Assembly (NCBI RefSeq): GCF_014874095.1
Contig: NZ_JADBEB010000001.1
Location: 7,750,001 to 7,814,000 of the forward strand
Length of the DNA: 64,000 nucleotides
Direction: 5' to 3'
Source: Plantactinospora soyae
GTDB lineage: Bacteria > Actinomycetota > Actinomycetes > Mycobacteriales > Micromonosporaceae
Position 1 is the first letter of the stretch; each line of letters begins with the position of its first letter. The position numbers and the translations under genes are program-made. Shown here piece by piece: positions 6,917 through 42,490 of this stretch. The notes beneath the pieces are model-generated. The model was not told where the DNA came from. It saw only the letters and a list, made by a program, of their open reading frames with translations, and searched no databases.

Positions 6917-7809
6917 GCCTGACCGACTTCCGCAGCACCGAGGCACCCGCCGCGCGACGCGCCCGGACCAACCGGACGGAGATCGTCGGCGGCCGGATCG
7001 CCGTCACCCTCAAGTACCTCTCGCTGGTCCTCGCCTCGGTGGTCGTCCTACTGCCGCTGCTGGTCCTGCTGATGGCGTCGCTGAAGACCAACGACGAGTA
7101 CGTCAACGGCGAGCCGTTCGACGCGCCCGGCAACTGGTTCAACCTCGACAACTACGTCACCGCCTTCACCGAGGGCGGCATGCTGCGGGCCTTCGTCAAC
7201 ACCTCGATCATCCTCGTCGTCTCCCTCGTCGGCACCGTCCTGATCGGCTCGATGGCTGCGTACGCCCTCGACCGGTTCGAGTTCCGGCTCAGGAAGACGA
7301 TCATCCTGCTGTTCCTCCTGGCCACCCTGGTCCCGGGGGTGACGACCCAGGTGGCCACCTTCCAGGTGGTGAACAATCTGGGCCTGTTCAACACCCGCTG
7401 GTCGGCGATCGCCCTGTTCCTCGGCACGGACATCATCTCGATCTACATCTTCCAGCAGTTCCTCCGGAGCATCCCCCGGGAGTTGGACGAGTCCGCCGCG
7501 ATCGAGGGCGCGAGTTCCCTCACCATCTACTTCAGGATCATCCTGCCCCTGCTGAAGCCGGCGATCGCGACCGTCGTGATCATCAAGGGGATCACCATCT
7601 ACAACGAGTTCTTCATCCCGTTCCTCTACATGCCCGACCGGGACCTCGGCGTCATCTCGACCTCGCTGTTCCGGTTCAAGGGGCCGTTCGGAGCGCAGTG
7701 GGAGGTCATCTCGGCCGGGGTGATCCTGGTCATCGTCCCCACGCTGGTCGTCTTCCTGCTGCTCCAGCGGTTCATCTACAACGGCTTCACCAGCGGGGCG
7801 ACGAAGTAG
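6913..7809 (+). CDS. carbohydrate ABC transporter permease (MalG/UgpE-type)
   Basis: This 298-residue partner permease has six hydrophobic segments (first one YLSLVLASVVVLLPLLVLLM) and an EAA loop, ESAAIEGASSLTIYFRIILP, near residue 196. Its GTG start lies inside the stop of the preceding gene. With the binding protein it makes a CUT1-type importer; the missing ATPase is expected to be a shared MsiK-like protein encoded elsewhere, as is common in actinobacteria. The substrate cannot be told from sequence. The next gene downstream is on the opposite strand. Confidence 0.9.
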   Translation: MSLTDFRSTEAPAARRARTNRTEIVGGRIAVTLKYLSLVLASVVVLLPLLVLLMASLKTNDEYVNGEPFDAPGNWFNLDNYVTAFTEGGMLRAFVNTSIILVVSLVGTVLIGSMAAYALDRFEFRLRKTIILLFLLATLVPGVTTQVATFQVVNNLGLFNTRWSAIALFLGTDIISIYIFQQFLRSIPRELDESAAIEGASSLTIYFRIILPLLKPAIATVVIIKGITIYNEFFIPFLYMPDRDLGVISTSLFRFKGPFGAQWEVISAGVILVIVPTLVVFLLLQRFIYNGFTSGATK

Positions 7810-7899
7810 GAACGGGCCGCCGGTCGTAGGCCGATCAGCGGGCGACGGGCCTGCCGGATCGAGGCGCGCGAACCGAGCGGTGTCGAGGCGGCCGCTGAC

Positions 7900-8535
7900 T
7901 CACGCGTCGGGGCCGGTGTCGCCGATGTCATCGCCGAAGACGGCGGCGAGCGCCTTCGCGATCACGTCGGGCAGATCGGTCCGTCCGTCGTCCTCGGCCC
8001 AACGCACCAACGCCGTGTGCATGGCGGCCAGACAGGCACTGGCCGCCGCCTGGGCCCGGAAGGCCGTGTCGGGATCGGTGGTGTCGCCGCCGAGAGCGCC
8101 GACGATTGCCTGCTGAAGGGCGTAGTGGTTGTCCAGGTGCTTGGCCCGCAGGGCCGGCGTCGAGATCATGAGCCGGAGGCGGGCGAGCAGAAACTGCCCG
8201 CTCGCCGTCAGGTCGTTCCCGGAGCTGCCACCGGTCAAGGTCCCGGCCGATGCGATGAGCGCGCTGCCGATCCGTCGGACCAGGGGCTGCGCGGCCGACG
8301 ACGCGGCGATCCGCTCGGCGACGAGCCGGCCGTGCTGGTCGACGAGCACGAGGTCTTCCTTGGTGGGGAAGTGCCGGTACACGGTCATGGCGGAGACACC
8401 TGCGGCTTCGGCGACGTCGGTGACGGTCGTGGCGTCGTACCCGCGCTCGGTGAACAGCCGTACCGCCTGCGCCTGGATCGTCCGCTGCGTCTCGACTCGC
8501 CGTTGCGCTCGCAGTGTTGGGTGCTGGTCGGGCAT
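7900..8535 (-). CDS. TetR family transcriptional regulator
   Basis: This 211-residue regulator has the DNA-binding domain at the N-terminus: QAQAVRLFTERGYDATTVTDVAEAAGV then SAMTVYRHFPTKEDLVL, a near-consensus TetR helix-turn-helix. The C-terminal domain is helical with the common tail pattern AAASACLAAMHTALVRWAEDDG. The ATG at 8535 lies 2 bases from the first of three operator copies. The divergent SDR gene starts on the other side, so this protein most likely represses both itself and the SDR gene. The ligand is unknown, perhaps the substrate of the SDR. Confidence 0.92.
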   Translation of the reverse strand: MPDQHPTLRAQRRVETQRTIQAQAVRLFTERGYDATTVTDVAEAAGVSAMTVYRHFPTKEDLVLVDQHGRLVAERIAASSAAQPLVRRIGSALIASAGTLTGGSSGNDLTASGQFLLARLRLMISTPALRAKHLDNHYALQQAIVGALGGDTTDPDTAFRAQAAASACLAAMHTALVRWAEDDGRTDLPDVIAKALAAVFGDDIGDTGPDA

Positions 8536-8536
8536 C

Positions 8537-8586
8537 TGGTAGACACTACCGCACTGGTAGTTACTAACAGATCGGTAGCAACTAAC
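8537..8586. promoter_or_regulatory. three operator copies at 18-bp spacing between tetR and SDR genes
   Basis: Three copies of GGTAG-N3-CTA(A/C)C start at 8538, 8556 and 8574, exactly 18 bp apart. The first, GGTAG-ACA-CTACC, is a perfect palindrome. The array fills the space between the divergent starts at 8535 and 8587/8605, so bound TetR dimers would cover both promoters. Confidence 0.85.
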
Positions 8587-8604
8587 ATGACAGAAGTGGT
8601 TGGC

Positions 8605-9369
8605 ATGAGTGGTCTGACCGGCAGGACGGCCCTCGTGACCGGAGCGTCGCGCGGCATCGGGCAGGCAATCGCGACCCGGCTGGCGGCGCAGGGAGCAATG
8701 GTCGTCGTGCACTTCGGCACGGACAAGGAGGGTGCGGCGGCGACGGTCGACGAGATCGAAGGTGCCGGCGGAACCGCGTTCGCCGTCGGGGCGGAACTGG
8801 GCATGCCGGACGACGTCGAGACGCTCTTCGCGGGAGTCGAAGCCGGCCTGGCCGGGCGGCCACTCGACATCCTCGTCAACAACGCGGCGGCCGCGCCCGC
8901 CGGCCCACTCGGCGCCACGACGCGGGCGGAGTTCGATCATCTGTTCGCGGTGAACGTGCGCGCGCCGTACTTCATCATCCAGCGAGCATTGCCGCTGCTG
9001 CCCGACGGTGGCCGCATCATCACGATCTCGTCCGTGGCGACCCGGATGGCCAACCCCACCCAGACGTCCTTCGCCATGACCAAGGGCGCGGTCGAGACGA
9101 TGAGCATGACCCTGGCCAACCAGCTCGGGATCCGAGGAATCACGGTGAACGCGGTCGCTCCCGGCGCCACCCGGACGGCCACCAACGGATCATCCTTCGA
9201 AGCGCCAGGGCTGGCCGAATTCGTCGCCGGCACGACGGCGCTCAACCGGCTGGGCGGACCCGACGACGTCGCCGACGTCGTCGCGTTCCTCGCCTCGGAC
9301 GCGGCACGGTGGATCACCGGCCAGGTCATCGACGCAAGTGGTGGCCTGTTCCTCGGACCGCGCGCCTGA
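8605..9369 (+). CDS. short-chain dehydrogenase/reductase family protein with Phe in place of the catalytic Tyr
   Basis: A classical SDR of 254 residues. The nucleotide-binding motif TGASRGIGQA is at about residues 12-21, the NNAA motif (LVNNAAAAP) near 92, and the catalytic Ser is in ISSVA near 142. The active-site Y-x-x-x-K is instead F-A-M-T-K at residues 156-160, with codon TTC at 9070-9072; Lys160 is kept. The C-terminus WITGQVIDASGG is typical. Without the Tyr, normal dehydrogenase activity is doubtful. The ATG at 8605 has GAAGTGG seven bases upstream; an alternative ATG at 8587 directly abuts the third operator copy. Expression is likely controlled by the divergent TetR. Confidence 0.88.
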   Translation: MSGLTGRTALVTGASRGIGQAIATRLAAQGAMVVVHFGTDKEGAAATVDEIEGAGGTAFAVGAELGMPDDVETLFAGVEAGLAGRPLDILVNNAAAAPAGPLGATTRAEFDHLFAVNVRAPYFIIQRALPLLPDGGRIITISSVATRMANPTQTSFAMTKGAVETMSMTLANQLGIRGITVNAVAPGATRTATNGSSFEAPGLAEFVAGTTALNRLGGPDDVADVVAFLASDAARWITGQVIDASGGLFLGPRA

Positions 9370-32615: not shown

Positions 32616-33434
32616 GTGACGTCGACGCTTCCGCCCAGCGAGACCGGCTACCTCGGGGCGGTGCTGGACCGGCTGGCCGCCGTACTCGGGGACGACCTGC
32701 TCGGCGTCTATCCGACCGGCTCCCTCGCGCTCGACGGCTACACGCCGGGACGCAGCGACATCGACCTGATCGCCGTGGTCGAGCGGGCCCGGCCCGCCGT
32801 GCTGGAGACGGTCGCCGCCCGGCTCTCCCACGACGCGCTCCCCTGTCCCGCGACCGGCCTGGAGTTCGTCCTGTACGAGCGGGCGACGCTGGCCCTGGCC
32901 GGCACCGGGGCCGGCTTCGCCCTCAACCTGAACACCGGACGGGAACTGCCGGCCAAACGTAGCTACGGCCCCGGCGACGAGGCGACCTTCTGGTATCCGA
33001 TCGACCGGGCGATCAGCAGCCAGCAGGGTGTCGCGCTGCTCGGGCCACCACCCCGGACGCTCCTCGCGCCGACACCGTTCGCGGCGCTGCTGCCGGTGGT
33101 CGTCGAGTCGATCGAGGCGCGCCTGCACGCGGACCTCGATCTCGTCGACAACGCGGTGCTCAACGGTTGCCGCTCGCTGCGGTTCGCCATGCAGCGGCAG
33201 TGGTACCCGAAGCGGTCGGCGGCGGAGTGGGCGATCGGGACGGTACCGGAGTTCGGCCCGCTGATCGGCGCGGCGCTGCGCAGCTACGACCGGGGACGGA
33301 CCGTCGACGGAACCGTCGACCGCCAGGAGGTACGGGCCTTCCTCGCCTTCCTCCTCGGCCGACTCGCCCCGACGCACCCGCCGCTCGACCGGCACCGGCC
33401 TGCCGGGAGCACGGGCGGCCACCGGGGCCGGTAG
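32616..33434 (+). CDS. nucleotidyltransferase, aminoglycoside adenylyltransferase-like
   Basis: The protein, 272 residues, has the Pol-beta nucleotidyltransferase signature: GSLALDGYTPGRSDIDLIAV, with Gly35-Ser36 and metal-binding Asp48 and Asp50. The C-terminal domain is helical, in the style of ANT(3'')/AadA-type adenylyltransferases (DUF4111). Such proteins adenylate streptomycin or spectinomycin, but many homologues in actinobacteria have no known drug substrate. No Shine-Dalgarno is seen before the GTG. It ends 48 bases from the convergent GH15 gene. Confidence 0.82.
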   Translation: MTSTLPPSETGYLGAVLDRLAAVLGDDLLGVYPTGSLALDGYTPGRSDIDLIAVVERARPAVLETVAARLSHDALPCPATGLEFVLYERATLALAGTGAGFALNLNTGRELPAKRSYGPGDEATFWYPIDRAISSQQGVALLGPPPRTLLAPTPFAALLPVVVESIEARLHADLDLVDNAVLNGCRSLRFAMQRQWYPKRSAAEWAIGTVPEFGPLIGAALRSYDRGRTVDGTVDRQEVRAFLAFLLGRLAPTHPPLDRHRPAGSTGGHRGR

Positions 33435-33482: not shown

Positions 33483-35315
33483 TCAGCCGACCTCGCCGGA
33501 CCGGGCCGACCCGGCCGACCGGATCGCGAGCGCGGCCTGGACGAGCGTCGCATGGGTCAGGGTCTGCGGATAGTTGCCGAGGTGGGCGCCGGTGACCGGG
33601 TCCATCTCCTCGGCGTAGAGGCCGAGCGGGCTCGCCCGGTCGAGGAGCAGCCGGAACAGCTCGATGGCCTCGGCCCGCCGTCCGGTGCCGGCGAGGGCCT
33701 GGGCGAGCCAAAAGGAGCAGGGCAGAAAGGCCGCCTCCGAGCCGGGTAGGCCGTCGTGTCCGGGTGGATAGCGGTAGAGCAGCGGACCGCCCGCACCGAG
33801 TTCGGCGCGAATGGCCGCGATGGTGCCACCGACCCGGGGCGAGTCGGCGTCCTCGATCCCGAGCAGCGGCAGCACCAGCAGCGCCGCGTCGAGTTCCGTC
33901 GAGCCGTAGCCACGAACATAGCTCGACCGTTCGGGATCGAAGCCGTTCGTCCGGACCTCGGAGGCGATCGCCTGCCGGGCGTCCTGCCAGCGTCGCCGCC
34001 GCCGGGCCGCAAGCGGATGCGTCTCGGCTATCCGCAGTGCCCGATCCAGGGCGAGCCAGCCCATCAGTTTGGAGTGCACCTGGTGGCTGGGTTGGCGCAG
34101 CTCCCAGATGCCGGCGTCGGGTTCCCGCCAGCGGCGGGTCACCACGTCGGCGAAGCCGCGCACCGCCCGCCAGGTCTCGGAGTCGAGGTGGTGTCCGGCC
34201 TGGACGTACACCCAGACGGCGTCGACGACCCAGCCGTAGCCGTCGAGCTGGTGCTGGTCGGCCGCGCCGTTGCCGATCCGTACCGGCGTGCTGCCGGCGT
34301 AGCCGGGCCAGCCGTCGAGCTGCCGTTCCGCCGGCACGCGCAGACCGTCCAGGGTGAACAGCGCCGGCAGGCGGGGTCGCTGCAACCGGCTGGCCCGCAA
34401 CAGCCAGGCGAGGAACCCGCGTGCCTGGTCGGGCTTGCCGACGCCGAGGAACGCGGCGACCCCGATGCTGGCGTCCCGGGGCCAGACGTAGCGGTAGTCC
34501 CAGTTCCGTACGCCGCCGGGCTGTTCCGGCAGCGAGGTGCTGGGCGCCGCGACCGGCGCGTGGGACGGCGAGTACGTCAACAGCCGCAGGGTGAGCAGGC
34601 TCCGCGTCACCGCCTCCCGGAAGGGGAGTTCCGGGTCCACCTCGGCGATCCAGGCCCGCCAGTGTGCCTCGTCGGCCCGCAGGAGTTCCCAGGCCACGGC
34701 CGGTTCGACGTCGATCAGTGGTTCACGGTGGGCCACGGTCAGCACGACGGTGAGCGGTCGTTCCGGCGCAACGGTCAGCACGGTCGACCGGCCCGGCTCG
34801 ACGTTCAGGTGGGGAGCGCAGGCCAGCGACACGGCGAGCGCTCCCCACTCGCAGACGAGCAGCGACCGGCGACGGCGTACCCGAGGTGCCCGATGGTTGG
34901 TCCCGAGCCGGGGGTCGAAGTCGACGACGGCCTCGATCGGTCCCCCTTCGGCCGACAGGCGCCGGACGAGCAGGGTCGACGGCAGCAGCCGCCCGGCGAC
35001 CTCGGCGACCATCCCCTCGGTGAGGGTGAGCCGCCGATCGCCCACCACCCAGGTAGTCCGGAGCGTGGTCGTGTGCTGCCGGTACCGCCGCTCGACGACC
35101 TCGGCCGGCCGGGCCGGTCCGATCCGGTACGTGCCCGCCTCCGGACCGCCGACGAGCCGACCGAACAGGGGCGCGCCGTCGAAGCGGGGTGCGCACATCC
35201 AGTCGATCGCACCGGTGCTGGAGACCAGGGCTGCGGTGCGGGTGTCCCCCAGCAGCCCGTAGTCCGCGATCGGTGGCGGCGCCGCGCCAGGGCCGACGGC
35301 CGGATCGTCGGTCAT
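33483..35315 (-). CDS. GH15 family glycoside hydrolase (glucoamylase/trehalase-like)
   Basis: The 610-residue protein has the two-part layout of bacterial GH15 enzymes. The N-terminal beta domain starts IADYGLLGDTRTAALVSSTG and includes IDWMCAPRFDGAPLFGRL; the (alpha/alpha)6 barrel has VRNWDYRYVWPRDASI, GIWELRQPSHQVHSKLMGW and LGLYAEEMDPVTGAHLGNYP. The Glu residues in WELR and AEEMDP fit the catalytic pair. Close relatives include mycobacterial trehalases as well as glucoamylases, so an alpha-glucosidic substrate is sure but trehalose versus maltodextrin is not. No signal peptide; cytoplasmic. It seems to be co-directional with the small membrane protein upstream. Confidence 0.92.
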   Translation of the reverse strand: MTDDPAVGPGAAPPPIADYGLLGDTRTAALVSSTGAIDWMCAPRFDGAPLFGRLVGGPEAGTYRIGPARPAEVVERRYRQHTTTLRTTWVVGDRRLTLTEGMVAEVAGRLLPSTLLVRRLSAEGGPIEAVVDFDPRLGTNHRAPRVRRRRSLLVCEWGALAVSLACAPHLNVEPGRSTVLTVAPERPLTVVLTVAHREPLIDVEPAVAWELLRADEAHWRAWIAEVDPELPFREAVTRSLLTLRLLTYSPSHAPVAAPSTSLPEQPGGVRNWDYRYVWPRDASIGVAAFLGVGKPDQARGFLAWLLRASRLQRPRLPALFTLDGLRVPAERQLDGWPGYAGSTPVRIGNGAADQHQLDGYGWVVDAVWVYVQAGHHLDSETWRAVRGFADVVTRRWREPDAGIWELRQPSHQVHSKLMGWLALDRALRIAETHPLAARRRRRWQDARQAIASEVRTNGFDPERSSYVRGYGSTELDAALLVLPLLGIEDADSPRVGGTIAAIRAELGAGGPLLYRYPPGHDGLPGSEAAFLPCSFWLAQALAGTGRRAEAIELFRLLLDRASPLGLYAEEMDPVTGAHLGNYPQTLTHATLVQAALAIRSAGSARSGEVG

Positions 35316-35385
35316 CGTGGTTCCCGCCGCGCATTGCGGGGCGCGACGATGGCCCGGCGGATCGCCCGGCCGGGGCCGACCGGGC

Positions 35386-35862
35386 TCACCGGGCCTGGAG
35401 GAGCAGGCCGAGGATGGCCCCGTAGAAGACGTGTACGACGCCCGTGATCACGGGCGTCTGCACGCCGTAGTTGAGGGCGAGCAGGCCCGGTGGCTCCAGC
35501 ACCGCCGTGCTGGACGGGCCGGCCCGCGCCGAAGCCATCCGTGGGTGTACGCCCGGCAGCAGCGGCAGCAGCACCGTCAGCGCGACGCCGACGTGCAGTA
35601 CCCCGATCAGCGCCCCGAGCCACCAGGTGGCGCGACCCAGCAGGGCGAACATCGCGGCGTAGCCGAGCGCGAAGCCCTGACCGGCCAGGAGGTGGATTCC
35701 GAACCCGGCCACCCGGGCCCGGTCCGGGTCCTCGGTGACCATGGTGCCGAGGATCAGCGGCAGGTCGACGCGGGTCAACCCGGCGAGTTGTGCCGTGATC
35801 ATCGCAGCGGTGAGTGCGGCCGTGGCGACCACGCCGAAGAGTGCCCAACCGGCCCAGTCCAT
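35386..35862 (-). CDS. small integral membrane protein
   Basis: This product of about 158 residues has four hydrophobic segments: WALFGVVATAALTAAMITA, GFGIHLLAGQGFALGYAAMFALL, TWWLGALIGVLHVGVALTVLLPL and TGVVHVFYGAILGLLL. A conserved-looking histidine-containing segment (GVHPRMASARAGPSS) lies between helices 3 and 4. Similar unnamed proteins occur in actinobacteria; the function is unknown. The ATG at 35862 starts just before the first helix; a GTG at 35892 would add 10 residues, and neither has a strong ribosome binding site. It lies 70 bases upstream of the GH15 gene and may be co-transcribed with it. Confidence 0.65.
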   Translation of the reverse strand: MDWAGWALFGVVATAALTAAMITAQLAGLTRVDLPLILGTMVTEDPDRARVAGFGIHLLAGQGFALGYAAMFALLGRATWWLGALIGVLHVGVALTVLLPLLPGVHPRMASARAGPSSTAVLEPPGLLALNYGVQTPVITGVVHVFYGAILGLLLQAR

Positions 35863-36240
35863 CTCAGCCGGCGCGACCGACCGCCAGGACACGCCGGCCC
35901 GGCCCGTTCGCCGGATCGCGTACCGGATCGGCCATCGGCCTGCCTCCTGATTCGTGTGGGGACGCGCCTCATCGGAGCACTGGCAGCCCCTGGTTCGTGC
36001 GTACACAACGGTATGCGTCGTGGTGGTCGGAAACCGTACGGCTCGCCGATCCGGCATTTTCGGAAACCATTCGGGTGCGCCTGCGCCCGCCCTTCCGTGC
36101 GTTTGTCGACCAGAACCATTGCCGAATGATTCCATTCCGATCTGGACGGAGAGACATGGACGGCGGAGGATGACCCGAAGGCAGAACGGCAGGAACGTCC
36201 AACAGTCCGTAAAAGGCCCGGACATATGGAGACGATAAAC
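35863..36240. other. divergent AT-richer intergenic region
   Basis: These 378 bases separate the membrane protein from the small-ORF/DUF397 pair and have lower GC than the surroundings. Several related motifs are seen: TTTTCGGAAACC near 36057, CCATTCGGG near 36067 and CCGAATG/CATTCCG near 36122-36140. They look like regulator sites but no clear symmetric operator can be defined. Confidence 0.4.
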
Positions 36241-36390
36241 GTGAGTACTCTTCCACTAATTCTCAAGCGGCTCCGCGCCGAACCCGGCCGAGTGACCGCG
36301 CTCGATCGGATGTGGCACGCCATCAGTGCGGTAGCGTTGCCGTGCGATCAGTCACGCGACCTGATTTCGAGGATGGTGAAGGACCTGTGA
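36241..36390 (+). CDS. 49-residue protein of unknown function, coupled to DUF397
   Basis: Reading from the GTG at 36241 gives VSTLPLILKRLRAEPGRVTA and continues to residue 49 with LDRMWHAISAVALP, then DQSRDLISRMVKDL. GGAG lies nine bases before the start. The third codon positions are strongly G/C, as in real genes of this genome. Its TGA (36388-36390) overlaps the GTG of the DUF397 gene, the same four-base overlap used elsewhere in the window. The product is short, helical and charged, with no signal or membrane segment. No family was recognised. In most loci DUF397 follows an XRE regulator; here this small gene takes that place. Confidence 0.6.
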   Translation: MSTLPLILKRLRAEPGRVTALDRMWHAISAVALPCDQSRDLISRMVKDL

Positions 36391-36575
36391 CGACCGACAG
36401 CCCGCGCTGGCGCACGTCGCGCCGCAGCAACCAGTCCGGCGGCGACTGCGTCGAGGTCGCCGACAATCTGCCCGGCCGGGTACTGGTCCGGGACAGCAAG
36501 GACCGCCCCGGACCGGTGCTGGCCTTCGCACCCGACGCGTGGCGCAGCTTCGTCCACGACGCCGCCGCCCGCTGA
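36387..36575 (+). CDS. DUF397 domain protein
   Basis: The 62-residue product is a complete DUF397 domain: WRTSRRSNQSGGDCVEVAD, VLVRDSKDRPGPVLAF and the tail WRSFVHDA. These small proteins are abundant in actinobacteria, usually next to an XRE-family regulator, and act with it in control of development and antibiotic production in the few studied cases. Here no XRE gene is adjacent; instead a 49-residue gene overlaps the start by four bases. The GTG at 36387 follows AAGGA closely. Cytoplasmic. Confidence 0.88.
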   Translation: MTTDSPRWRTSRRSNQSGGDCVEVADNLPGRVLVRDSKDRPGPVLAFAPDAWRSFVHDAAAR

Positions 36576-36703
36576 CTTCCCGCTCCGGCACTACGGCGCC
36601 GAGACACCACCGGTGCAGGTACGAGACGTACCGGCCCGGCCTCGAATCCACCCGGGCACGGAGGCCGCGACCAGGTGGCCCCGAGACCAGGCCGGCGACC
36701 GAG

Positions 36704-37966
36704 TTACCGGGACGCTCCCGCGCGCCGCTTGGTCCAGACGTCGAAGGCCACCGCCGCCAGCAGTACGGCACCCTTGACCAGCATCACCTGCTCGCTGGGC
36801 GCCCCGATCAGCGACATGCCGTTGTTGATCACACCCATGATCAGGCCGCCGGTGATGGCACCGACCACCTTGCCGACGCCGCCCTGCACGGCGGCCCCGC
36901 CGATGAACGCGGCGGCGATGGCGTCGAGTTCGAAGGCGTTGCCGGCGGTCGGTCCGGCCTGGTTCAGCCGGCCGGCGAAGATGACCCCGGCGAGTGCGGC
37001 CAGCACACCCATGTTGACGAAGATCCAGAAGATCACCGACTTGACCTTGACCCCGCTCAGGGTCGCGGCCTGCAGGTTGCCGCCGACGGCGTAGATCTGC
37101 CGGCCGAACACGGCACGGCTGGTGACCAGCGAGTACGCCAGGATCAGCGCCGCGAGCGCCACCAGGACCCAGGGCAGGTTCTTGAACCGGGCCAGCTGCA
37201 CGATCACGGTCATCACCACGACGGCGGCTGCGACGATCTTCAGCACGAACAGCGGCAGCGGTTCGACGGTCTGGTGATAGCCGAGCCGGGCCATCCGGCC
37301 GCGCCACTGCACCACGGCGAAGCCGACCACCGCCGCGATCCCGACCAGCAGGCTGAACAGGTCCGCCCCGCCCAGCGGCCCGAGCCCGATGTTGCCGAGG
37401 TACCCCTCGGTGAAGCCGTTGGCCAGGGTACGGACCGGGTCCGGGAACGGCCCGATGCCCTGGTTACCGAGGACGGTGAGGGTGAGCGCCCGGAACAGCA
37501 GCATGCCGGCCAGGGTCACGATGAAGGCGGGGATTCCGAAGTAGGCGATCCAGAAGCCCTGCCAGGCGCCGATGAGTCCGCCGACCACGAGGGTGATCAG
37601 CAGGGCCAGCGGCCACGGTACGTCGTGTTCGACCATCAGCACCGCGGCCACGGCTCCGGTGACCGCCACCACCGAGCCGGCGGAGAGGTCGATGTGGCCG
37701 GCAATGATGATCAGGATCATCCCGATCGCGAGGATCAGGATGTAGGAGTTCTGCACGATGATGTTTGAGATGTTCTGCGGTTGCAGCAGGGCACCGTCGG
37801 TGAGTACCGAGAACAGCAGAACGATCAGCGCGAAGGCGATGTAGATGCCGCTCTGCCGCAGGTTCACCGGCAGCCGGCGACCGGGTCCGCCGGCCGATGG
37901 CGACGGATCGCCCAGACCGGGCCCGCTCACCGCGAGATCGGCGTTGGTGGGTGCGGTGGCGCTCAT
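36704..37966 (-). CDS. sugar ABC transporter permease (XylH/GguB-like)
   Basis: The 420-residue permease belongs to the ribose/xylose/arabinose class. Membrane segments run from GIYIAFALIVLLFSVLT onward, with the family motif MILIIIAGHIDLSAGSVVA near residue 83 and GGAAVQGGVGKVVGAITGGLIMGVINNGM near 350. It forms a homodimeric channel with the ATPase encoded just upstream. GGGAG is nine bases before the ATG at 37966, and the ATPase stop is only six bases away, so the genes form one operon. Sugar is probably L-arabinose, given araA upstream. Confidence 0.93.
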   Translation of the reverse strand: MSATAPTNADLAVSGPGLGDPSPSAGGPGRRLPVNLRQSGIYIAFALIVLLFSVLTDGALLQPQNISNIIVQNSYILILAIGMILIIIAGHIDLSAGSVVAVTGAVAAVLMVEHDVPWPLALLITLVVGGLIGAWQGFWIAYFGIPAFIVTLAGMLLFRALTLTVLGNQGIGPFPDPVRTLANGFTEGYLGNIGLGPLGGADLFSLLVGIAAVVGFAVVQWRGRMARLGYHQTVEPLPLFVLKIVAAAVVVMTVIVQLARFKNLPWVLVALAALILAYSLVTSRAVFGRQIYAVGGNLQAATLSGVKVKSVIFWIFVNMGVLAALAGVIFAGRLNQAGPTAGNAFELDAIAAAFIGGAAVQGGVGKVVGAITGGLIMGVINNGMSLIGAPSEQVMLVKGAVLLAAVAFDVWTKRRAGASR

Positions 37967-37972
37967 CGAGGT

Positions 37973-39562
37973 CTACTCCCGTTCATTCGTCGTGTCGCTC
38001 TGGTCGGTCCCCGTACTCCGACCGTTGGTGGTGTCGGTCTGCCCCTTGGTCATGTACCGCATCAGACCCTCCTGGGTCGCGTCCTCCCGCGCCACCTCGG
38101 CGGTGACCCGACCGGCGGAAAGGGTGTAGATGCGGTCACACAGGCCCAGCAGCTCGGGCAGCTCCGACGAGATGACCAGGACCGCCTTGCCCTCGTCGGC
38201 GAGCCGGTTGATGATCGAGTAGATCTCGTACTTGGCGCCGACGTCGATACCCCGGGTCGGCTCGTCCAGGATCAGCACGTCGGGGTTCGTGAAGATCCAC
38301 TTCGACAGCACGACCTTCTGCTGGTTGCCGCCGCTGAGCTTGCCGGTCGTACTCAGCACGCTGGGCGCCTTGATGTTCATGCTGGTGCGGAACTCGTTGG
38401 CGACCCGGTACTCCTGGTTGTCGTCGACCCAGCCGCGCCGAGCCAGCTTGGCCAGGCCCGCCGCCGAGATGTTGCGCTTGATGTCCTCGATGAGGTTGAG
38501 GCCGTACCGCTTACGGTCCTCGGTGGCGTACGCGATGCCGTGCCGGATCGCGTCCCGCACCGACCGTACGCTGATCTCCGTACCGTCCTTGACCAGCCGC
38601 CCGGTGATGTTCGTGCCGTACGAGCGGCCGAAGACGCTCATCGCCAGCTCGGTACGACCGGCGCCCATCAACCCGGCGAGCCCGACGATCTCGCCGCGCC
38701 GCAGCGTGAGGTTGGCGTTCGCCACCACCACCCGGCCGCGCTGGGTCGGACTGTGCACCGTCCAGTCCTCGATCCGCAGGACCTCCGTGCCGATCCGTGG
38801 CTCCCGGGGCGGGAAACGGTGGTCCAGGTCCCGGCCGACCATGCCGGAGATGATCCGGTCCTCGGTCACCTCGTCGGCCCGCATGTCCAACGTCTCGATC
38901 ATCTGGCCGTCCCGCAGGATGCTGATCCGGTCGGCGATCGCCGCGATCTCGTTCAGCTTGTGCGAGATGATCACACAGGTGATGCCCTGGTCTCGCAGGC
39001 CCCGGAGCAGGTCGAGCAGGTGCGCGGAGTCCCGGTCGTTGAGCGCCGCGGTGGGCTCGTCGAGGATGAGCAGCCGGACCCGCTTGGACAACGCCTTGGC
39101 GATCTCGACGAGCTGCTGCTTGCCGACCCCGATGTCGACCACGGCGGTCACCGGGTTCTCCGACAGGCCGACCCGGGCGAGCAGCTCGGCGGCCTCGTGG
39201 TTGGTCCGGTTCCAGTCGATCAGACCCCGGGCCGCCCGCTCGTTGCCGAGGAAGATGTTCTCGGCGATCGACAGCTGCGGGCAGAGCGCCAGCTCCTGGT
39301 GGATGATGACGATGCCGCGTCGCTCGCTGTCCCGGATGTCGGAGAACTCGCACGCCTCGCCGTCGAAGGAGATCTCCCCCGAGTACGAGCCGTGCGGGTA
39401 GACCCCGGACAGCACCTTCATCAGGGTCGACTTTCCCGCGCCGTTCTCGCCGCAGATCGCGTGGATCTCCCCCCGGCGCACCGAGAGGCTGACCTCCTGC
39501 AGTGCCCGTACCCCGGGAAAGGTCTTGGTGATGTCACGCATCCGCAGAATGTCGTCGGTCAT
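37973..39562 (-). CDS. sugar ABC transporter ATP-binding protein, two-domain (GguA/XylG-like)
   Basis: The 529-residue protein carries two ATPase domains. The first has Walker [10 protein letters not shown] near 39, the variant signature [13 protein letters not shown] and Walker [12 protein letters not shown]. The second has a degenerate Walker A (GLMGAGRTE), the full signature [15 protein letters not shown] and [15 protein letters not shown]. This asymmetry is normal for monosaccharide importers (CUT2). The ATG at 39562 is chosen; a TTG six bases upstream has better spacing to GGAGG and may be the true start. It drives the permease in the same operon. Confidence 0.94.
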
Positions 39563-39655
39563 TGCCAACGGAACGCCTCCGTCGTGCGAGGTGGGTGTGG
39601 CCGGTGGTGCGGCGGCGGCCGCGCGGGAACCGCGCGACCGCCGCTGGAGGAGCGA

Positions 39656-40780
39656 CTACTTGAGCTGGTCCTCTTTGTAGTAACCGGTGTCGACCAACGT
39701 CGCCTTGTAGTTGGCCTTGTTGACGATCACCGGCTGCAGCAGGAAGGACGGTACGACCTTGTTGCCGTTGTCGTAGTCCTTCTCGTTGTTCACCTCGGGC
39801 TTGCCGCCCTTGAGCACCGCGTCGGCCATCTTGACCGCGACCTCGGCGAGTTCCCGGGTGTCCTTGTAGATGGTCGAGTACTGCTCGTTCGCGATGATGG
39901 ACTTCACCGAGGCGACCTCGGCGTCCTGACCGGTCACCACCGGGTAAGGCTGACCGCCGGTGCCGTAGCCGTTGCTCTTCAGCGCCGACAGGATGCCGAT
40001 CGACAGTCCGTCGTACGGCGACAGCACGCCGTCGACCTTCGCACCGCCGTACGTCTTGGTCAGCAGGTCCTCCATCCGGCGCTGTGCGGTACCCGCCTCC
40101 CAGCGCAGGATCGCGACGGTCTTGAAGTCCTTCTGCCCGCTCTTGACCACCAGCGTGCCCTTGTCGATGTACGGCTGGAGCACCGACATCGCCCCGTTGA
40201 AGAAGAAGGTGGCGTTGTTGTCGTCCGGCGAACCGGCGAACAGCTCGATGTTGAACGGGCCCTTGGCCTCGCCGTCGGTGCCGTCGTCCTTCTTCAACTT
40301 CAGCCCGACCAGCAGCGAGGTCGCCTGCTGGACGCCGACCTTGAAGTTGTCGAACGTGGCGTAGTAGTTGACGTTCGGGCTGTTCCGGATCAGGCGGTCG
40401 TACGCGATGACCGGAATCTTGTTGTCCGCCGCGTTCTGCAACTGGGTGGTGATCGCGGTGCCGTCGATCGAGGCGATGATGAGCACCTTGGCGCCCCTGG
40501 TGATCTGGTTCTCGATCTGGTTCACCTGGGACGGGATGTCGTTCTCGGCGTACTGGAGGTCGACCTGGTAGCCGAGCTTCTCCAGTCCCGCCTTGACGTT
40601 GTTGCCGTCGTGGATCCACCGCTCGGAGGACTTCGTCGGCATGGTGACGCCGACGAGCGCGCCGGCGCTGTCGCCGGAGCCGCCCTCTTCGTCCACCGTC
40701 TTCGTGCTCGATCCACACGCGGTGAGAGCGGCGGCGAGCGTGATGGCGCCAGCCGCCGCCGCGAGCCGGGCGAATTTCAT
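39656..40780 (-). CDS. sugar ABC transporter substrate-binding lipoprotein (ChvE-like)
   Basis: A 374-residue lipoprotein with signal [20 protein letters not shown] and lipobox LTAC near residue 22. The body is of the periplasmic-binding type I class: [57 protein letters not shown] and [20 protein letters not shown]. This is closest to ChvE/GguS-type proteins that bind arabinose, galactose, glucose or xylose. GGAGGAGC directly precedes the ATG at 40780. It is followed by the ATPase gene after 93 bases. The ligand is likely L-arabinose, from its position after araA. Confidence 0.93.
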
Positions 40781-40840
40781 GTGCTCCTCCAAATTCCTGG
40801 TACGGCGTGCGGGTCTCCGCTGCGGGACACGGGCTTGCGC

Positions 40841-40875
40841 CGCGACCCGCGGGTCTCGTACGGGTGCGGGTCGCG
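40841..40875 (-). terminator. GC-rich hairpin between araA and the binding-protein gene
   Basis: CGCGACCCGC (40841-40850) pairs with GCGGGTCGCG (40866-40875), a perfect 10-bp stem with a 15-base loop. It lies about 100 bases after the araA stop and 60 bases before the next gene. It could be a partial terminator or an RNA-stability element that sets different levels for the enzyme and the importer. Confidence 0.4.
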
Positions 40876-40972
40876 CTGCGCGATCCGCGGGACCGGCCGG
40901 TGGCGTACGTCGGACATCCGTTACTCCACCACGGATCGATGGATCCGGCATGCCCGGGCCGGGCCGGTCGGG

Positions 40973-42490
40973 TCAGTTCCGGCCGGACAGTCCCTGGGCG
41001 AGCCGGTGGTAGGCCTGGTTCCAGCGCAGCCGGTCCCGGAAGTCCGCCGTCGTGGTGTTCTCGTCGATCAGCACCAGCTCGGTGTGCAGCATCTCGGCGA
41101 AGTCGCGCAGGGTGGCCGAGCCGACCGCCTGGGTGAGCACGGTGTGGTGCGGGCCACCGGCGGTCAGCCAGGACTCGGCCGACGTGGTCAACGACGGTGC
41201 CGGCTTCCATACGGCGCGCGCGACCGGCAGGTTCGGCATCGGCTCGTCCGGCGGCACGACCTCGATCTCGTTGGCGACGAGACGGAACCGTTCGCCGAGA
41301 TCGGCCAGTCCGATCACCACCGCCGGACCGGGGGTGGCGTCGAAGACGAGCCGGACCGGGTCCTCCCGGTCGCCGATGCCGAGCGGATGGATCTCGCACG
41401 AGGGTTGCCCGCCCGCGATGGTGGGGCAGACCTCCAGCATGTGCGCGCCGAGGATCTTCGGCTCGCCGGGCCCGAAGTGGTACGTGTAGTCCTCCATGAA
41501 GGAGGTGCCACGGCCGGTGCCGACGCTCATCGCCTTGACCGAGGCCAGCAGGGTCGAGGTCTTCCAGTCGCCCTCGCCGCCGAAGCCGTAGCCGTCGGCC
41601 ATCAACCGTTGTACGGCGAGGCCGGGCAGTTGGCGAAGGCCGCCGAGGTCCTGGAAGTTGGTGGTGAACGCCCCGAATCCGCCGTCGGTGAGGAACTGCC
41701 GCAGGCCGGCCTCGATCCGGGCCGCGTACCGCAGCGAGTCGTGCCGGTCGCCGTCCTTGGCAAGTTCGGGGGCGAGCCGGTAGGTGTCGGCGTAGTCCGC
41801 GACGAGCCGGTCGATCTCCGCGTCGGCGACCTGGTCCACGACGTCGACCAGGTCGTTGACGCCGTAGGTGTTCACCGAGACGCCGAACCGAAGTTCCGCC
41901 TCCACCTTGTCACCTTCGGTGACGGCGACGTCCCGCATGTTGTCGCCGAACCGGGCCAACCGGAGATTGCGCAGGTGGCCGTAGCCGAGCGCGGCCCGGG
42001 CCCAGTCGTCGATCCGGGACACCACGCTCGGGTCGGAGGCGTGCCCGGCAATGGTCTTGCGGGCCAGCCCGAGCCGGGTCTGGATGAAGCCGAACTCCCG
42101 GTCGCCGTGCGCGGCCTGGTTGAGGTTCATGAAGTCCATGTCGATGGACTCCCAGGGCAGCGCCTCGTTGAGCTGGGTGTGCAGGTGCAGCAGCGGCTTG
42201 CGGAGCGCGTCCAGCCCGCTGATCCACATCTTGGCCGGCGAGAAGGTGTGCATCCAGGCGATCACACCGAGGCAGGCCGGATCGGCGTTGGCCTCCAGCA
42301 GGATTGCGCGGATCGCCGACGCCTCGGTGAGTACGGGTTTCCAGACGATCTCCGCGACGACCTGACCGGAGCCGGTGAGCGTGCGCATGATCTGCTGCGA
42401 CTGGCTCGCGACCTGGTCGAGGGTTTCCGGGCCGTACAGGTGCTGGCTTCCGGTGAGGAACCAGATCTGCGGTTGCTTGGCCGGCGGCAT
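40973..42490 (-). CDS. araA: L-arabinose isomerase
   Basis: The 505-residue enzyme has the usual length for AraA, which converts L-arabinose to L-ribulose. It starts [20 protein letters not shown], the family signature, and has [47 protein letters not shown] with a metal-binding Glu, [11 protein letters not shown] and [10 protein letters not shown] with further metal ligands. The ATG at 42490 follows GGAGAGG; 8 extra in-frame residues upstream are not family-like. The kinase (araB) and epimerase (araD) are not in the window. It is the first gene of the arabinose importer unit and lies behind the TGTTA-N4-TAACA operator. Confidence 0.96.

Follow-up and report, generated by a model that had tools for sequence, protein, structure and literature searches.

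Does the 49-codon open reading frame that immediately precedes a DUF397 gene in Plantactinospora soyae represent a new small gene, or can it be traced to a gene already known from such loci? The frame lies in a 64,000-nucleotide stretch of contig NZ_JADBEB010000001.1 (positions 7,750,001 to 7,814,000), hereafter the window, which belongs to a 9.7-Mb single-contig genome (labelled G000). A preliminary description of this DNA had proposed a small protein standing in the place of the XRE-family regulator and possibly serving as a minimal partner of the DUF397 protein. Our results suggest instead that the locus is a decayed XRE-DUF5753/DUF397 pair and that the frame consists of the two ends of the regulator gene, joined after the loss of its middle (probability of about 0.93).

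Both ends of an XRE-DUF5753 regulator in one frame

The 49-residue sequence was used to search 61 genomes, and its residues 10-49 were found to match inside long frames, which are the C-termini of XRE-DUF5753 regulators located immediately before DUF397 genes. In another genome of the same genus (G004), an intact 259-codon XRE-DUF5753 regulator and its DUF397 gene are flanked by the same genes as in the window. The C-terminus of this regulator matches residues 10-49 at 88% (E value about 1e-18), and the upstream and N-terminal DNA of the window aligns with the same gene over 77 bases with 86% identity (E value 5.6e-17). The N-terminus reads VSTLPLILKRLRAE in the window and VSTVPVILKRLRAE in G004. 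The G004 regulator begins with ...METINVSTVPVILKRLRAERAVTQ... and ends with ...EPDRVTALDRMWHAVSAVALPCDQSRDLILRMVKDL, and the window encodes METINVSTLPLILKRLRAEPGRVTALDRMWHAISAVALPCDQSRDLISRMVKDL: because the frame matches both the start and the end of the G004 regulator, both ends were kept and the middle is missing. Once 630 bp (210 codons) are removed from the G004 gene, 129 of 147 bases agree with the window. The breakpoint lies inside CGCCGAGC, an 8-base sequence that flanks the missing 630 bp on either side in G004. The region from 33514 to 42100 of the window aligns with a single 12-kb stretch of G004, in separate blocks on either side of the gene, and synteny is kept on both flanks. A model of the regulator derived from 16 full-length sequences, three of which come from the window's own genome, also matches the frame twice, at positions 6-26 (weakly, 7 bits) and 229-269 (55 bits) of 270. 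DNA alignment and synteny with G004 thus establish descent from an XRE-DUF5753 regulator gene.

The signals of the frame lead to the same conclusion. The sequence ATGGAGACGATAAACGTGAG (36226-36245) contains GGAG at 36228-36231 and the GTG start codon at 36241; the TGA stop codon (36388-36390) overlaps the GTG start of DUF397 (36387-36389) as GTGA. These signals, described earlier, are read directly in the sequence, and all of them, together with the C-terminus, are present in G004 as well, which indicates that they were inherited from the regulator. The GC-rich third codon positions noted previously are present but modest, with 35 of 49 in the frame, whereas the DUF397 gene has 58 of 62 and the intact regulator of G004 has 223 of 259. 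The upstream region is indeed AT-richer, with a GC content of 54% at 36140-36259 versus 63-78% in 120-base windows of the neighbouring genes. A promoter and terminator scan of 35950-36750 returned no match.

A start signal of its own and its location in the regulator's position could suggest that the frame is an independent small gene recruited into that place. This is ruled out by the DNA alignment with G004: both ends of the frame are homologous, in order and at the DNA level, to the regulator found at the same site. The frame does occupy the position of the XRE regulator, as proposed, and no full-length XRE regulator was found within 1.5 kb upstream of the DUF397 gene; what does not hold is the notion of a separate protein, since the frame is the regulator minus 210 of its 259 codons.

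Table 1. Features of the decayed regulator/DUF397 locus in the window.
Feature	Coordinates	Strand	Basis
Upstream signal inherited from the lost regulator gene	36206..36240	+	G004 alignment upstream of the intact regulator; ATATGGAGACGATAAACGTGAGTACT identical in both
XRE-DUF5753 regulator codons 1-14 (first HTH helix)	36241..36282	+	12/14 residues shared with G004
Junction of the deletion, at the site of the 8-base repeat	36276..36283	+	Breakpoint scan versus G004 gene; window CGCCGAAC, G004 CGCCGAGC
Last 35 codons of the regulator (DUF5753 end) and stop codon	36283..36390	+	Residues shared: G004 32/35, G006 30/35; DUF5753 positions 148-178
Intact DUF397 gene, 62 amino acids	36387..36575	+	PF04149, 72.5 bits; GTGA overlap with preceding stop

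Conservation of the frame and its possible function

Little of the regulator's domain content is left in the 49-residue protein. No family match to the helix-turn-helix (HTH) domain was found at E values up to 1, compared to 40 bits with HTH_31 for the G004 protein, and the match to DUF5753 (PF19054, 178 positions), which covers positions 148-178 only, scores 16 bits and falls short of the 23.4 cut-off. In the predicted structure of the G004 regulator (mean predicted local distance difference test score, pLDDT, of 68.7, the C-terminal part being weak), the first HTH helix spans residues 4-15, and the kept residues fall on this helix and on the last two helices. A Foldseek search of the G004 model against the PDB yielded no match at E values up to 0.001; most of the entries displayed were HTH proteins. 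With the remaining HTH helices and the greater part of DUF5753 lost, the 49-residue product should be unable to bind DNA in the manner of the regulator. The DUF397 gene itself is intact (its match covers profile positions 2-54 of 55, with a cut-off of 24 bits), so that what remains falls short of a complete XRE/DUF397 pair only through the regulator, which is reduced to 49 codons.

Conservation of the frame as a 49-residue protein had been set beforehand as a test. The full frame (residues 1-49) was matched in one of 354 genomes of the family, the window's own, while any match was found in 31. The idea of a 49-residue protein thus fails this test, conservation being limited to the two ends of the complete regulator. 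The proposed search for similar peptides before DUF397 genes thus recovered C-terminal matches, in regulators and their remnants, but the whole 49-mer in the window alone. A scan of a genome collection with the 49-mer, which may omit records of the window's genome or of very close ones, returned two relatives, both from Plantactinospora mayteni, with 69% identity.

We then consider what the codon changes indicate. Relative to G004, the last 35 codons present eight silent changes and three replacements, and the first 14 codons four silent changes and two replacements; relative to G006, another genome of the genus, the last 35 codons present five of each. These numbers are too small to tell whether the frame has been decaying since a recent deletion or has stayed under constraint, and most of the changes relative to G004 may be older than the deletion. 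The replacements V28I and L43S occur in the window alone.

Several observations weigh against simple decay. The mostly silent changes in the C-terminal part relative to G004 are compatible with continued constraint. The frame is open and in phase after the deletion, for which a random deletion has one chance in three. The comparison covers a single strain of the species. The in-frame deletion, the mainly silent C-terminal changes and the preserved start codon and coupling would also be expected if the deletion product were a functional mini-protein, in which the first HTH helix and the two final DUF5753 helices bind DUF397 or other regulators as a partner, a decoy or a dominant-negative form. 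C-terminal regulator remnants before DUF397 genes recur in other genomes, and natural WhiJ-BldB fusions, as reported in passages of PMC10294661, suggest a joint action of both proteins. We nevertheless consider such a mini-protein improbable: it is confined to one genome of 354, it retains no complete domain, its third positions in the C-terminal part are less GC-rich than those of G004 (28 versus 32 of 35), and the region of the regulator that contacts DUF397 is not established in the literature passages at hand. For the minimal partner of DUF397 proposed in the preliminary description, we found nothing in support.

Decay of the pair in related genomes and elsewhere in the genome

The same site was compared across seven genomes of the genus: the pair is intact in one, decayed in two, absent with both flanks present in three (G001, G002 and G003), and not comparable in one (G005, where the permease is present and the upstream flank was not found). 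At the G006 site, a transposase-like frame runs into the last 51 codons of the regulator and is followed by an intact DUF397 gene; this frame presents a weak match to DDE_Tnp_4 (19.3 bits, below the cut-off of 24.8). In this genome (locus L062, about 7,370-9,340), inserted sequence including the transposase-like frame replaces the front of the regulator. In the trees of both flanks, the window's genome and G002, a genome without the pair, form a group with a support of 1.000. Repeated loss of the pair is the simplest reading of this distribution across the genus.

The window's genome contains 54 DUF397 matches, and we classified the 1.5 kb upstream of each. A full regulator is adjacent in 34 cases and separated by at least one DUF397 gene in five, ten present no regulator, and five present a partial one: the window itself (L112), L108, L022, L023 and L115. 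At L108, a C-terminal piece of the regulator precedes DUF397. At L022 (contig C1, about 3,953,000), a short frame with a partial HTH (weak match of 13 bits) stands before DUF397; this is apparently the opposite kind of remnant, in which the N-terminal piece was kept. L023 and L115 (contig C1, about 1,358,300-1,359,600) share one XRE-DUF5753 regulator, interrupted by a stop codon in the part coding for the HTH. Two DUF397 genes follow, and a copy of the final codons of the regulator (model positions 252-269) stands before the second of them.

Regulator remnants before DUF397 genes recur in related genomes. Among the matches in the 354 genomes, we identified nine short frames (at most 120 amino acids) besides that of the window (for most genomes of the genus, 19 of the 27-36 first-look candidates were scored). 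All nine consist of a C-terminal piece only, beginning at model positions 188-244 of 270, and the next frame is DUF397-like in eight by a motif test and in the ninth by reading its translation. Since these frames were sought with a C-terminal query, which finds C-terminal remnants only, the list does not show a preferential survival of C-terminal pieces.

Such remnants could have been kept because the last 30-80 residues of the regulator suffice to act with DUF397, or because its expression requires them in cis; the window would then be the most reduced case (start, leader and tail). We regard this as unlikely. Among six full-length relatives (L034, L035, L041, L043, L044 and L036), divergence at fourfold sites is very low in the last block (5 of 92 in codons 261-280), whereas codons 241-260 show no such reduction (40 of 125). 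The low divergence of the last block probably reflects the overlap with the start of DUF397 in the other frame. A conserved signal in the 3' end of the regulator, tried as a cause of tail survival, finds no clear support beyond this overlap, as codons 241-260 are not low.

Proposed history of the locus

The locus resembles known XRE-DUF5753/DUF397 pairs (WhiJ/BldB-like; Scr1/Scr2, SCO4441/4442) in gene order, overlap, start region, C-terminal end and intact DUF397 gene, and differs from them in that its regulator lacks 210 of 259 codons, including most of the HTH and DUF5753. According to passages of PMC10294661, WhiJ9 of Streptomyces binds DNA upstream of iosA, and the bldB9 promoter, located inside whiJ9, was left undisturbed when residues 1-159 of WhiJ9 were removed by an engineered in-frame deletion. 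As in the window, the deletion engineered in Streptomyces venezuelae is in frame and spares both the C-terminal end of the regulator and the bldB-type gene downstream of it; in contrast, the deletion in the window is natural and keeps the first 14 and last 35 codons. The passages of the DUF397, DUF5753 and WhiJ-BldB literature at hand describe no natural regulator remnant of this kind.

We propose that the middle 630 bp were lost through slippage or recombination between short repeats. The 49-codon frame is most likely a pseudogene remnant. Its transcription and translation probably still begin at the start region of the regulator itself, and its product would be devoid of DNA-binding or sensor activity. 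The frame may still lead ribosomes to DUF397, and would be at most a leader delivering them to the overlapping start. The DUF397 protein, left without a local partner, would be either on its way out or paired with paralogous partners encoded elsewhere in the genome. If the pair were a type II toxin-antitoxin system, the XRE protein would be expected to neutralise a toxic DUF397 protein. Overexpression of DUF397 proteins in Streptomyces coelicolor caused no clear toxicity in the passages of PMC10364602 and PMC6262351 that report it, so the loss of the regulator with DUF397 kept is expected to be tolerated.

The neighbouring genes lie on the opposite strand: upstream, a gene of glycoside hydrolase family 15 and a frame that has no Pfam match; downstream, ABC transporter genes. 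Farther away, a gene at 32616-33434 (+) matches AadA_C, the C-terminal domain of aminoglycoside adenylyltransferase (35.1 bits).

The locus is a case of ordinary gene decay. This removes a false new small gene, as each of its gene-like features is accounted for by descent, and provides natural examples of how XRE/DUF397 pairs decay: by short-repeat deletion in the window, by transposase-like insertion in G006, and with no pair left in three relatives. These results indicate that DUF397 can outlast its regulator, in agreement with the published reports that it is not clearly toxic alone.
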